Shown here piece by piece: positions 12,062 to 62,230 of a stretch of DNA of 64,000 nucleotides. The first letter of the stretch is position 1. Every line of letters begins with the position of its first letter. The position numbers and the translations under genes are program-made. A model generated the notes under the pieces. The model saw only the letters and a list, made by a program, of their open reading frames with translations, made no database searches and was not told where the DNA came from. Origin of the DNA: Desulfovibrio sp. MES5 (lineage in GTDB: Bacteria; Desulfobacterota; Desulfovibrionia; Desulfovibrionales; Desulfovibrionaceae); NCBI RefSeq assembly GCF_002237645.1, contig NZ_MJUZ01000008.1:1-64000 (forward strand), read 5' to 3'.

Positions 12062-12277
12062 GACTGCTGCGCAAGGGGCGCAGGCAGGCCGTGTTGGGCA
12101 TGAAGGCGTAAACGCCGCGTATACGGGCTGTTAGGCGCTGTAACGGATGTTCCCGCAAGGGGGCTGTATCCGCATTATTCCGCGCTGTTATGCACAGAAG
12201 CGGGCAGGCCGTCAGCGTTGAGAATTTGCTTTCTCAAAAGCATTCTGCTCCAAGGTTTTTCCTCTGACAATGTGCGA

Positions 12278-34586: not shown

Positions 34587-37500
34587 ATGTCTAGCCTTCC
34601 TTCAGATCGCCCCTGGCTGACCGTACTTCTTGCCTGCCTGCCGGAATTTTCGGCCCGGCCCGCTCTGGACGCCCTGATCCGTGCTGGCGGCCGGGGTCAG
34701 GTGGTTTTGCTGCTTTGTGAAGAAGCCGAGCGCGAGCCAATGACCGCCCTGGGGCGGGAAATGGTGCGTAGTGGCGATTTGCGCGCCTTTCGTTGCCAGT
34801 GCCCGCAGGCTGGCCAAAATCTGTGGCATGTGCGCAATGCCGCGTCGGCACTGGTTCGCACGCCGTGGCTCCTGCTGCTTTCATCTTCGGTTCTGCTGCA
34901 AGAAAATGCCTTGCCGCCACTGCGGCGCGCGCTGGAAACCCACAGGGATCTGGCAGGCGTTAATCCCTTTTTTCTGTATCCTGCCGGAACTGGAGGGCCG
35001 CCCGCGCGATCGGACGAGCCGCTCCATACCAGCCCCGCGCTGCCGCGAATTGCCCACATGGGCACAGTGGTCGATTGCCTTGGCCAACAGCACTATCTTT
35101 ATGAAGGGCTGCCCCTGGGCCATACGCTTGCGCGGCGCGAGCGCCGCTTCCAGCTGGCGCATACGGCGGCGCTGCTGTTGCGCACATCTGACGTGGCGGC
35201 TGCTGGCGGCTTCAATCCATCTCTGGACAGCCTTGCCGATGTGGATTTCTGTCTGCGTCTTGGGGCCTTATTGCACCAAACGGCTGGCGGCGGCGCGGCG
35301 GGCGCTTTTGGCAGTATCCCCGTATCGTTGGCCCGTCTGGGCGATTATTTCGATTCGTGGCAAACCTGCGGCTTGTGGAACAGTCTGCTGCAGCGGGAGC
35401 GCATCGAGCCGGGCGTGCTGCACCCGGACTACGCGGCCCATGTGTCGGCCGACGGGCTGGAGTATGGCTGCACTGACTGGCTCTGGCAGGGGCCCTGTCC
35501 GCAGCCGGGATCGTGGGTTGACGCGGGGAAGGAGCCGGAATCGAGCGGAGCAGGGGAGCCCGGCACGGGTTTTCCTCTTGAGGCATGGCTTCGCTGGCGG
35601 TGGCAGCCACAGCCCGACACCCTGCTGGGCTTTTTACACGCCCTGACGCCCCATCAGCGCACCCAGGCCGTGCAGATGTGCCGCGACCTGCCGGTGAGCC
35701 TGCCGTACGCGCACTCCTGGTATGCCTCCACAGCCAGAAATCTTCTGGCCTGCAGCCACCGGGGCGCTGTGGCTCCACTGGTGCATGATGCACAGCGGTG
35801 GCTGGAGCGGGCGGAAGATTTTCGGCGTAACCATCTGCATGCGGGCATGCGGGCATTGCAGGCGGAGGGCGTTTACGACAGTGGCCTCGATGACTGCCCG
35901 GCCTCTTTTGACGCCTGGGTGGAACTGGTTGAACCCGCACTGCAAAGCGGACAGGACTGCACACCCGACGCTGCCCAGTTCGACCTGCTGCACACAGGAG
36001 CCGACTGGCCCGCCATAGCCGTGGTTATGCCCGTCTACAACCCCAGGCCAGACCACCTGCGCGCGGCTTTGGACTCCGTGCTGGCACAGGAATACCCACA
36101 CTGGCAGCTCTGCATTGCCGATGATGCCTCCACAAAAAATGAAATCCCTGAAATTTTGCGTAGCTACGCTGCTGATGACAAAAGGCTGCGCCTCGTGCTG
36201 CGGGGAAAAAACGGGCACATCTCCCGTGCCTCCAATTCTGCCCTGGAGCTGGTTGACGCCCCCTGGACCGGCTTTCTTGACCATGATGATCTGCTGACCA
36301 ATCACGCCCTGAGCGAAGTGGCGTCGCTTGTTCGGCATAAGCCAGATCTGGGGCTGATGTATTCTGACGAGGACAAGCTGGACAGCCGTGGGGTTCGTCG
36401 CACGCCGGTTTTTCGTGCGGATTTTGATCCCTGGACCTGTTTTACAGGGCACTTTTCCGTCTACGCCACAAAAGAATTGCGGGCAGCCGGGGGCTTCAGG
36501 ACTGGTTTTGAGGGCTCGCAGGATTTTGATCTCAGCCTGCGCGTCATTGAAAGGCTGGCTCCTGGGCGTATCGCCCACATGCCGCGGATTCTTTATCACT
36601 GGCGTGTGCATGACGGAAGCACCAGCGGCTCGCTTGGGGCAAAACCCTATGTGCTGGAAGCCACCCGCAGAGCCCTTGAAGAAAGCGTGCGTCGCCGAGG
36701 CTTCAAGGCTGAGGCCGTGCCAACGGCGCTCAACAACTTTTTTGTGCTGCGGCATGAGGTTGATCCACGCATGCGGTGCAGCGCTGTTCTGCTCGCTGCG
36801 GACAGTCGCCCCGTACAGGCGGGCCTGTGGGAAGAACTGGAAAAACTCGCGGGTACGCTTGATCTGGAAGTCCTCTGTCAGCCTCTGAGCAATGACGCTG
36901 CGGAGGCTTTCAGAAGCATGCCCACAGCAACTTTTGCGGGCGCGCGCCTTCTGCCCCCACCAGAGGGCAAGGAGAACGGGGACTGGCATGCAGCCTGCAA
37001 TGGGGCCGCCAGTGCTGCTTCAGGCCAGGTGTTGCTTTTTCTGGATGCCCGCTTGAGTCCCTTGCCGGGCAGCCTGCCCGGTCAGCTTGCTGCTCTGGCT
37101 CTCCAGGAAAACGTGGGAGCTGTGGGCGGCACCCTGTGGCGCGGCAACCGCCTCTGGCACGCCGGGCTGATGCCGGATGTCACAGGGCTGCCTTTTGCCC
37201 TGCACCGGGGTGCGCATAGAGACCTGCTCTCGTCCATCTGCTGGGGGCAGCTTTTGCTCACACGGCGTGCGCTCGCCGCGCCGGAGCAGGCTATGGCCGT
37301 GCGTCGCGCCGTTTTTCTTGAGCATGGAGGCTATGACATTGCCATGGGGCCTTGGGCCGGAGCGGATCTGGGGTTGCGGCTGGCAGCGGCAGGAATGCAC
37401 AGTCTGAGTTGCCCGTGGGGACAGTGGCATGTTCCTTTGCAGCCTGGAAAGGCCTTAGAAAATGTGGCGTGGGCGGAAGATGTACAGGGGCGGCAACGCA

Positions 37501-37664
37501 TTACGCCCCAGACGCGGGAGAGTTTTCTCGCGCGCTGGGGCGGGATCGTGCGTGGGAGCGGCCTACGTAATGCGCTGTTGCACGCGGCTCCCGATCAGAG
37601 CTGGGCCCTGACGCTGAAAATTTTTTCAGAGCACTTTGCCTCTGAAAAAGGATGCATGCTCTAA
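34587..37664 (+). CDS. Multidomain family 2 glycosyltransferase
   Basis: A 1025-aa cytoplasmic protein with three GT-A-like segments. The N-terminal one (about 10-260) is divergent. The central one (about 470-720) is a clear GT2 domain with VVMPVYNPRPDHLRAALDS, DDAS and the metal-binding FLDHDD, followed by GFEGSQDFDL and YHWRVHDGSTS. The C-terminal one (about 735-1000) resembles a third, degenerate GT2 fold. It likely builds a surface polysaccharide or a glycan on flagellin or LPS; acceptors are unknown. There is no SD; a TATAGA at 34575 sits 7 bp before the ATG. The last codons and the stop belong to a family B repeat. Confidence 0.88.
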   Translation: MSSLPSDRPWLTVLLACLPEFSARPALDALIRAGGRGQVVLLLCEEAEREPMTALGREMVRSGDLRAFRCQCPQAGQNLWHVRNAASALVRTPWLLLLSSSVLLQENALPPLRRALETHRDLAGVNPFFLYPAGTGGPPARSDEPLHTSPALPRIAHMGTVVDCLGQQHYLYEGLPLGHTLARRERRFQLAHTAALLLRTSDVAAAGGFNPSLDSLADVDFCLRLGALLHQTAGGGAAGAFGSIPVSLARLGDYFDSWQTCGLWNSLLQRERIEPGVLHPDYAAHVSADGLEYGCTDWLWQGPCPQPGSWVDAGKEPESSGAGEPGTGFPLEAWLRWRWQPQPDTLLGFLHALTPHQRTQAVQMCRDLPVSLPYAHSWYASTARNLLACSHRGAVAPLVHDAQRWLERAEDFRRNHLHAGMRALQAEGVYDSGLDDCPASFDAWVELVEPALQSGQDCTPDAAQFDLLHTGADWPAIAVVMPVYNPRPDHLRAALDSVLAQEYPHWQLCIADDASTKNEIPEILRSYAADDKRLRLVLRGKNGHISRASNSALELVDAPWTGFLDHDDLLTNHALSEVASLVRHKPDLGLMYSDEDKLDSRGVRRTPVFRADFDPWTCFTGHFSVYATKELRAAGGFRTGFEGSQDFDLSLRVIERLAPGRIAHMPRILYHWRVHDGSTSGSLGAKPYVLEATRRALEESVRRRGFKAEAVPTALNNFFVLRHEVDPRMRCSAVLLAADSRPVQAGLWEELEKLAGTLDLEVLCQPLSNDAAEAFRSMPTATFAGARLLPPPEGKENGDWHAACNGAASAASGQVLLFLDARLSPLPGSLPGQLAALALQENVGAVGGTLWRGNRLWHAGLMPDVTGLPFALHRGAHRDLLSSICWGQLLLTRRALAAPEQAMAVRRAVFLEHGGYDIAMGPWAGADLGLRLAAAGMHSLSCPWGQWHVPLQPGKALENVAWAEDVQGRQRITPQTRESFLARWGGIVRGSGLRNALLHAAPDQSWALTLKIFSEHFASEKGCML

Positions 37665-37780
37665 CACTGCACGAGAGCGCAGCGAGCCACAACGTGGCGT
37701 GGATTCTGCCAGAAGCGCATTTTTGGCAGAATGACCATTAAAATGTAAAGCATTTCAAAGTGATTCTGATCTAGAGCGAT
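37655..37780 (+). repeat. Family B hairpin-array element, copy 1
   Basis: CTCTAAC-CTGCACGAGAGCGCAG, GCCAC/GTGGC, ATTCTGCCA...TGGCAGAAT (9 bp) and AAATG/CATTT stem-loops follow one another and end at CTGATCTAGAG. The order and most bases match copy 2 (62061-62213). The innermost pair of the 9-bp stem is A-T here and G-C in copy 2. Confidence 0.8.
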
Positions 37781-51861: not shown

Positions 51862-52218
51862 TGCTTTAAATCCCCCGCTCCAGATCGGAAAAACCCTTAG
51901 ACCCTTTTCGCATTGAGAATATCCATTCTCGCGGTAGCCGTTGCCCGCAGGGCTTGCCTGAACCGTTGGCGAGAACCGCCTTACGGGGCAGGACAGCATC
52001 GCTATGGATGGCGACAGCGATTGTATGGAACAAGCTGTGTCGTTACGCATGCTGTCTTCAAGCGTAGTTTCCTGCGTCACAACGCTTTAAGCCTGCGTCA
52101 CAACGCCTGAATCAATGCTTCCAAGACGCCCGCTTCGGCGCGTAACCGCGCAAATAAATAGCGGTGCTGTCTTTATTGAAAATACCGCACACTTCAATGG
52201 TAACATGCTCTCGACACA
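51862..52218. repeat. Family A left half interrupted by family C material
   Basis: 51862-51901 (gaagacgct...ccgctccagatcggaaaaaccctt) is the left module of family A. The right module (aaaagttttagggggtgggg) resumes only at 52219. Between them lie the TTGAGAATAT..ATTCTC palindrome, inverted module Y (51936-52004), a 22-bp-period duplication of CCTGCGTCACAACGC and module X (52122-52172) of family C. Confidence 0.7.
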
Positions 52219-52241
52219 GCAAAAGTTTTAGGGGGTGGGGC

Positions 52242-52281
52242 GTAGGGGAGGGACCCTTTTGTAAAAGGGTCCCTCCCCCAC
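52242..52281. repeat. Family A hairpin, copy 2
   Basis: GGGGAGGGACCCTTTT and AAAAGGGTCCCTCCCC pair around a GT loop. It lies 25 bp past the stop of the HD-GYP gene and, like copy 1, could close a minus-strand operon. Confidence 0.85.
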
Positions 52282-52305
52282 AGAGCAGTTCAACGCGACA
52301 TTTTC

Positions 52306-59884: not shown

Positions 59885-60255
59885 GGTGGGGAGGAAATGC
59901 TCTGTGGGGGAGGGACCCTTTTGAAAAAGGGTCTCCTCCCCCACGCCCCCACCCCCTAAAACTTTTATTGTGTGTTAGAACAATACCAAGGGTTTTCTGA
60001 TTTGGGGCGGGGGTTTCAGAGAAAGCGTCTTCAGGCGTCGCACGGTTCAGGATTGTCCCGCTCCAGCCACAGTACATGTTGTACATGTTGATGCCGTCGT
60101 TTTCAGCTTTCCGGCTGTGCGTCCGCATGATGGCAGTTGGCACAGCCGTTTCGGGTGTCAGCGTCAGGCCGCATGCGTCCGCAATGGGCGTTGGAGTCTG
60201 ACGGGGCGCTTCATCGAAAAAAACAGGTCTATTTTCACTCATTGCTGGTGCTGCC
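59885..60255. other. Gap between polA and the AraC gene, holding an inverted family A element
   Basis: The first 150 bp are an inverted family A element (59885-60035). The rest, up to the AraC start, has only shadow ORFs and no clear promoter. Confidence 0.6.
59904..60029 (-). repeat. Family A element, copy 3 (inverted), hairpin at 59904-59944
   Basis: The reverse complement reads tgaagacgct...gaaacccccgcc...cagaaaacccttgg...aaaagttttagggggtgggggcgtgggggagg, then the hairpin. It is the most complete uninterrupted copy in the window and lies directly after polA. Confidence 0.8.
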
Positions 60256-61954: not shown

Positions 61955-62230
61955 GAAAGACGCTGTTTCTGAAACCCCTGCTCCAGATCAGAAAACCCTT
62001 GGTGCGTCACGTAAATACACCAAGAGTTTTAGGGGGGGGGCGTGGGGGAGGGGGCCCTTTTTTAGGGCATTTAACTTTTTTCAAAGTTAAATGCCCTAAC
62101 GCTGCATGAGAGTGCAGCGCGCCACAACGTGGCGTGGATTCTGCCGTAAATCGCATTTTCGGCAGAATGACAACTTTGAAATGTGAAGCATTTCAAAGTT
62201 AATCTGATCTAAAGAGGGTCCCTCCCCCAC
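61955..62230 (+). repeat. Family A element, copy 4, split by a B element
   Basis: The left module (gaaagacgct...agatcagaaaacccttgg...gagttttagggggg) and the left hairpin arm end at about 62060; the right arm AGAGGGTCCCTCCCCCAC is at 62213-62230. Without the insert the arms would form the same hairpin as copies 1-3. Confidence 0.8.
62061..62213 (+). repeat. Family B hairpin-array element, copy 2 (nested)
   Basis: Five perfect stem-loops in series: TTAGGGCATTTAACTTT (17 bp), CGCTGCA/TGCAGCG (7 bp), CGCCAC/GTGGCG (6 bp), ATTCTGCCG/CGGCAGAAT (9 bp) and AACTTTGAAATG/CATTTCAAAGTT (12 bp). It ends with GATCTAAA, which mirrors TTTAG at the left edge. The last four stems have counterparts in copy 1. 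Confidence 0.85.

Follow-up and report, generated by a model that had tools for sequence, protein, structure and literature searches.

A putative IS630-type miniature element of Desulfovibrio, its copies on stop codons and a changed glycosyltransferase C-terminus

Introduction

At the end of a glycosyltransferase gene of Desulfovibrio sp. MES5 a series of small hairpins is found that recurs at 62.1 kb of the window, i.e. the whole 64,000-nt stretch of DNA analysed here. One of the stems is closed by A-T at the first place and by G-C at the second. The initial annotation took this paired change as a sign of selection on the fold and suspected that the insertion had set the C-terminus of the protein. 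The locus raises the question what kind of sequence forms the hairpins, whether their fold is kept at each locus and how they came to lie across the end of a gene. We consider the feature, with a probability of about 0.85, to be a non-autonomous IS630-type MITE that inserts into TA targets, at times those of stop codons. In the following, G000 denotes the genome under study, and G017 and the other G numbers denote relatives. The presence of dsrB (491 bits) identifies the host as a sulfite or sulfate reducer.

Results and discussion

Limits, parts and spread of the element

The whole element in the window is 147 nt long, with limits obtained from a 41-copy alignment and from empty sites (Table 1). 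The initial annotation had described a repeat at 37655-37780. Its agreement with the 62.1-kb copy holds, with the same hairpin order and identities of 91% (37656-37710 against 62091-62145) and 87% (37738-37776 against 62176-62214), but its limits were misplaced and the first hairpin was missed. What was taken for a common left edge, CTCTAAC/CCCTAAC, belongs to H1 as its right arm, and the element starts approximately 30 nt further left, within the open reading frame. The family start in the 41-copy alignment is TAGAGCA, which has mutated to CAGAGCA at 37627; the end at 37773 is TCTA. Copies are 147-151 nt long and have no coding capacity. They fold into five consecutive local hairpins and carry terminal inverted repeats of ~21 bp (consensus left end TAGAGCATTTTAACTTTGAAAA; right end, reversed, TAGAGCAGATTAACTTTGAAATG), such that each end forms a hairpin of its own.

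Table 1. Positions of the element, its hairpins and the overlapping gene in the window
Feature	Position	Strand	Remarks
Whole element	37627..37773	+	left target TA (now CA) to right target TA; match to covariance model R2 over 1-151 of 151, 120.6 bits
H1, left terminal inverted repeat and first hairpin, CAGAGCACTTTGCCTCTGAAAAAGGATGCATGCTCTA	37627..37663	+	inside glycosyltransferase ORF
H2 hairpin	37665..37684	+	two pairs broken in window copy
H3 hairpin	37686..37699	+	
H4 hairpin, carries the reported A-T / G-C pair (37711 with 37724)	37703..37732	+	
H5 hairpin	37737..37761	+	H5 and tail form the right terminal inverted repeat
Right end GATTCTGATCTA, last bases are the duplicated TA	37762..37773	+	
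Second full copy in window	62063..62211	+	H1 loop inverted, every stem intact
Glycosyltransferase ORF, 1025 aa, Pfam Glycos_transf_2	34587..37664	+	residues 1014-1025 (SEHFASEKGCML) and TAA are element sequence
TAA stop in present use, end of H1	37662..37664	+	

The 62.1-kb relative had been described as the other member of a pair, which understates the family. BLAST found 41 places in the genome at E values from 1e-60 to 2e-20, which excludes a chance resemblance, and the five-hairpin covariance model R2 counts at least 150 copies in the draft genome G000. Many copies were also found in the same-genus genomes G017, G002, G020, G021, G022, G023 and G010, while no copy was found in 16 genomes that represent other genera within the order. 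An Rfam scan of the window at the gathering score returned two tRNAs only, leaving the element unmatched. At a contig end (G000:C15:29-325, L029) two copies lie head to tail with a common junction.

Mobility and the putative transposase

Most intact copies have TA at both ends. Occupied and empty sites were compared between G000 and G017; several empty sites have diverged, so that a clean TA duplication is limited to some of the copies. The 62.1-kb copy has gone into the loop of a hairpin repeat, called 'A', which in G017 is uninterrupted and lacks the copy. The reverse case is given by G017 L190:11062-11211, which is occupied while the corresponding 'A' hairpin at 52242-52281 of the window is intact. 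The copy at L125:139-289 is likewise missing from G017.

A 995-bp IS630 element in G022 (L201:1432-2426) with the ends TAGAGCGTTTCAACTTTGAAATG / TAGAGCAATTCAACTTTGAAATG is matched by the IS630 model; its two overlapping frames code for HTH and DDE_3 Pfam domains. The MITE consensus agrees with these ends at 19/21 positions on the left and 18/21 on the right, and the left end of the G020 MITE is identical to the IS630 end (21/21). Matches to the IS630 transposase model NF033545 were obtained in G002, G010, G020 and G022. None was found at E<=1e-5 in G000 or G017, draft assemblies that break at repeats, so we infer the mobiliser from the relatives. An IS630-family transposase would recognise the ~21-bp ends (TAGAGCANNTTAACTTTGAAA) and paste the element into TA, with a preference for YTAR. 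The order of target preference found is CTAG>TTAG/CTAA>TTAA. IS630 is known to prefer the TA in CTAG (Tenzen and Ohtsubo 1991, cited in PMC2170065), and ISY100 inserts nearly only at TA.

The G022 transposase gene is split into two overlapping frames (L201:1441-2377), probably a programmed frameshift. In G002 a copy lies within an IS630-family transposase gene (L220:455-594), possibly disabling its own mobiliser. An IS5/IS427-type element was rejected as mobiliser: the only abutting case (C22:109347) has unrelated ends, GGTAGTGTCTACACG, and has itself gone into the closing CTA|G of the MITE copy (G000:C22:108537-109497, L232; IS ends GGTAGTGTCTACACGAG).

The element is known in kind as a MITE and new as a family, compared with RUP, BOX, Correia and ERIC by anatomy as published. 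RUP (repeat unit of pneumococcus), for which mobilisation by IS630-Spn1 has been proposed, shares a length of ~100-150 nt, the lack of coding sequence, the TA target, IS630-matching ends, a copy number above 100 and stop codons at its ends (PMC2229807). In anatomy the present element differs from it by five serial hairpins, longer terminal repeats and exact stop-codon placement. Correia/NEMIS and ERIC are likewise small MITEs flanked by TA, with strongly folding transcripts, but they pair their two ends, whereas the hairpins here are local and serial (PMC2229807). BOX repeats encode the stops of 36 pneumococcal genes; they are modular (A/B/C), and neither truncated nor extended proteins were demonstrated for them (PMC3049150), whereas here a pre-insertion stop and a changed C-terminus are seen in orthologues. 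With IS630 and Tc1-mariner elements the family has in common the TA duplication, the CTAG preference and, in its putative partner, a DDE_3 transposase with HTH, but it has no transposase gene itself. The TA target and IS630-like ends point away from REP/BIME with RAYT.

Origin of the glycosyltransferase C-terminus

The TAA listed in Table 1 is the stop of the 1025-aa frame, as previously annotated, and the suspicion that the insertion determined the end of the protein proved right. The window protein ends with ...WALTLKIFSEHFASEKGCML before the stop, of which the last 12 residues (SEHFASEKGCML) and the TAA are encoded by the element. Alignment with same-genus orthologues ends at residue 1011, and their stops lie at ~1011-1013. 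The five closest orthologues (G017, G074, G021, G002 and G071) stop at most 4 residues from 1011 and carry no typical element copy; the G017 protein ends with ...WALMLKRNF and a stop (TTTCTAG), the G074 protein with ...WALMMKENF and a stop (TTTTTAG), neither with the element.

On the far side of the element the sequence reads TA-G, from which the site before insertion is read as TAG. Compared with the relatives, the present reading frame is shifted by two bases in an A/T run, and the first TA has become CA; with these two changes the remade stop disappeared, and the ribosome reads on to the TAA of H1. The element would thus have landed on the TA of the stop codon (TTTTTAG/TTTCTAG in relatives), and the TA to CA change and the frame shift in the adjacent A/T run would have followed later, taking translation 12 codons into H1. 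At L007 the first TA is likewise lost, and the stop lies at element position 29.

Landing on stop codons

Elements that insert into tRNA genes or terminators are familiar examples of safe-harbour insertion. Among 150 copies examined in four species, 50 sit exactly on a stop codon, with gene ends taken from a codon-usage gene caller built for the analysis. In 14 of the 52 G000 copies within 850 kb the stop is formed by element positions 1-3, i.e. the target TA and the G of the element, one of them having mutated to TAA. Further sets gave 10/27 for other G000 loci and 8/25 for G017, as well as 8/30 for G002 and 10/16 for G021, the latter two being hand counts of stops at position 3, as the automatic label missed terminal repeats with changed bases. 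Since the first base of the element behind the TA is G, a TAA or TAG that receives the element is remade as TAG, which turns stop codons into safe landing sites. Read from the far side, TAG or TAA is restored in 15/15 stop-codon copies, a check that is weak alone because the base after TA is mostly G or A in non-stop copies too. For the copy at C11:104222 the landing is proved: in G017 the orthologous protein stops at the very same residue, with TAA. ArgJ-, GlmM- and MotA-like proteins with copies at the stop look complete at their C-termini.

How much of this pattern follows from the target preference was judged against two expectations computed from G000: 5.6% of copies on stops for a uniform choice of TA outside genes, and 14.6% with the measured YTAR preference. 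The preference might by itself explain the placement, such sites being seldom met within genes and frequent at stops; CTAG is weighted highest, and of the 434 CTAG counted outside coding sequence on both strands, 166 belong to stop codons. We regard this explanation as possible, at rather lower than even odds. Its prediction is exceeded in G000 and G017, where 32/104 copies (31%) lie on stops (p=9e-16 against the uniform and p=2e-5 against the YTAR expectation). In addition, the fraction is highest in the more diverged G021 copies and lower in the near-identical G002 copies, which fits survival acting on top of preference; part of the excess may thus reflect survival, not targeting. A transcription terminator at gene ends would also account for the location after stops and for the 17/52 copies between convergent genes, compared with 72/451 intergenic gaps. 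We hold this to be improbable, and reject it as the main function: a T-run is absent after H5 as well as after H1, copies occur inside operons too, e.g. between motA-like and motB-like genes, and a convergent bias is expected of a tolerated parasite as well (PMC3049150).

We give about an even chance to the reading that the MITE lineage is adapted to stop codons. A YTAR-preferring transposase and an invariant first G would together provide a self-repairing, nearly cost-free safe harbour, used by approximately one third of the copies in several species, and remade stops that are later lost would give rise to new C-terminal tails. What seems to bring the cut-and-paste element into its safe harbour is a first base that suits the stop codon, and the glycosyltransferase is an example, followed in detail, of a protein end that changed. 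The literature searched, from which most subscription papers were left out, yielded no account of stop codons being remade by an element in this manner.

Truncation of genes by chance insertion was dismissed as an explanation for the stops in G000 and G017, where 32 stops lie at position 3, three lie later (29, 38 and 44) and none at 15. Three G002 genes appear to end deeper in the element, at positions 17, 19 and 29. In one operon (G000:C52:94897-96975) copies are found at the stops of both the motA-like and the motB-like gene. The gene caller gave 254 TAG, 181 TGA and 173 TAA stops in the G000 contigs C11, C41, C22, C52 and C8; TAG as the commonest stop is unusual for bacteria.

Pairing, covariation and decay of copies

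RNAalifold, run on the alignment of 41 copies, left out H1 and paired H2 wrongly, and a hand-made structure was used, under which 88.5% of the stem cells pair. In this alignment 69 cells carry double changes, compared with 31.6 in shuffled and 13-31 in slid controls. Across species the covariation is stronger: 13 sequences from six genomes pair in 95.8% of the cells of H4 and H5, with 36 double-change cells compared with 9.5 (shuffled) and 1-6 (slid). This count covers these two hairpins, as H1-H3 of G002/G010 align out of register, and leaves aside the G022/G020 types, in which H3 encloses H4. The same five hairpins occur in G010 and G002 with largely different stems.

The A-T versus G-C difference between the two window copies is a true paired change (ATTCTGCCA/TGGCAGAAT here, ATTCTGCCG/CGGCAGAAT at 62.1 kb). 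Within the family it is a minor case: in the corresponding alignment columns 89/104, 33 copies have G-C and 2 have A-U. A structured RNA, i.e. a small RNA or an mRNA-tail element, that is selected at each locus would leave such a compensatory pair as its trace and would agree with the overall pairing and with a covariation above both controls. The changes private to one or two copies speak strongly against it: 74 break a pair, 30 are one-sided and keep it, and 2 are compensatory, with 1.7 expected by chance. Under looser definitions of rare changes compensations are still few, at 6 (3.8 expected), 9 (3.1 expected) and 14 (11.5 expected). Private transitions keep a G-U pair in 23 cases and break the pair in 23. 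The commonest flip, T-A to A-T in columns 85/108, splits the family 20 to 15 and requires just two changes on the tree, which was built leaving H4 out and in which most forks are weak. In the window copy itself 8 of 43 pairs are broken and 1 is compensated, while the 62.1-kb copy has no broken pair. Together with the missing Rfam match these data make a structured RNA selected at each locus very improbable.

Unpaired stem substitutions are thus frequent among further copies, the outcome that the initial annotation had named as speaking against its proposal. Given how common they are and the 8 broken pairs, the single A-T/G-C pair is no evidence for selection or for a small RNA at the window copy. 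Compensatory changes do not preserve the stems of single inserted copies. Selection on the fold finds support among source lineages and between species, where stems covary, and fails for individual copies: since stem changes in single copies mostly break pairs, the fold is kept in the propagating elements and not in each insertion. The five-hairpin fold would be maintained in source lineages that still transpose, while copies drift once inserted, and nothing was seen to preserve the fold at the window locus. With many insertions in one genome the family forms a natural experiment in hairpin evolution. It also carries a warning for work on repeats: covariation between copies can be strong though single copies are unconstrained.

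Recurrent inversion of loops

Loops are often reverse-complemented while the stems remain unchanged (G000 L010, L012, L022, L024, L027, L035 and L040; G017 L167:16939-17089). In H5 the loop TGAAG has become CTTCA-like in 7/66 copies (400 null draws gave a mean of 0.11 and at most 2), in H2 GAGA/GAAA has become TCTC/TTTC in 2/69 copies, and about 5-7 copies show an inverted H1 loop. The H4 loop TCGCA is TGCGA-like in 5 copies, which represent five separate changes on the tree; the 4A/5T asymmetry of H4 is flipped in L012 and L040. These inversions are independent events, likely caused by template switching or arm exchange, and the copies record them at the DNA level. Template switching in rRNA hairpins likewise produces loop inversions and compensatory changes (PMC8794818); here they occur within a single genome, among the many scattered copies of a mobile element of bacteria.

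By such a mechanism some paired changes could arise neutrally. Extended to the whole fold, it would have template switching or arm exchange repair the stems and flip the loops, such that the fold is kept without selection and paired changes are a mutational by-product. The recurrence of inversions in four of the hairpins fits this scenario, which we nevertheless consider somewhat unlikely. Instantaneous compensation is nearly absent in the inserted copies, so arm repair is too rare to keep their stems, and some inverted hairpins, such as that of L024, retain mismatches.

Other repeats in the window and in the relatives

The hairpin repeat 'A' (GGGGGAGGGACCCTTTT..AAAAGGGTCCCTCCCCC) occurs in the window at 1-71, 52232-52302, 59894-59964 and around 62063-62211, and its loop is a recurrent landing site of the MITE, with several copies in G000 and G017. 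A longer repeat family at 2559-2779, 12179-12255 and 51973-52171 has, at least in part, TAGAGCA-like ends and is probably a second MITE type of the same transposase. An element type of ~128 bp (TAGAGCAGTTTACGAATGAAA ... TTTCAAGTGTTAAATGCTCTA) was found in many places, among them G017 L167:9788-9914, L172:4846-4973 and L193:9918-10045.
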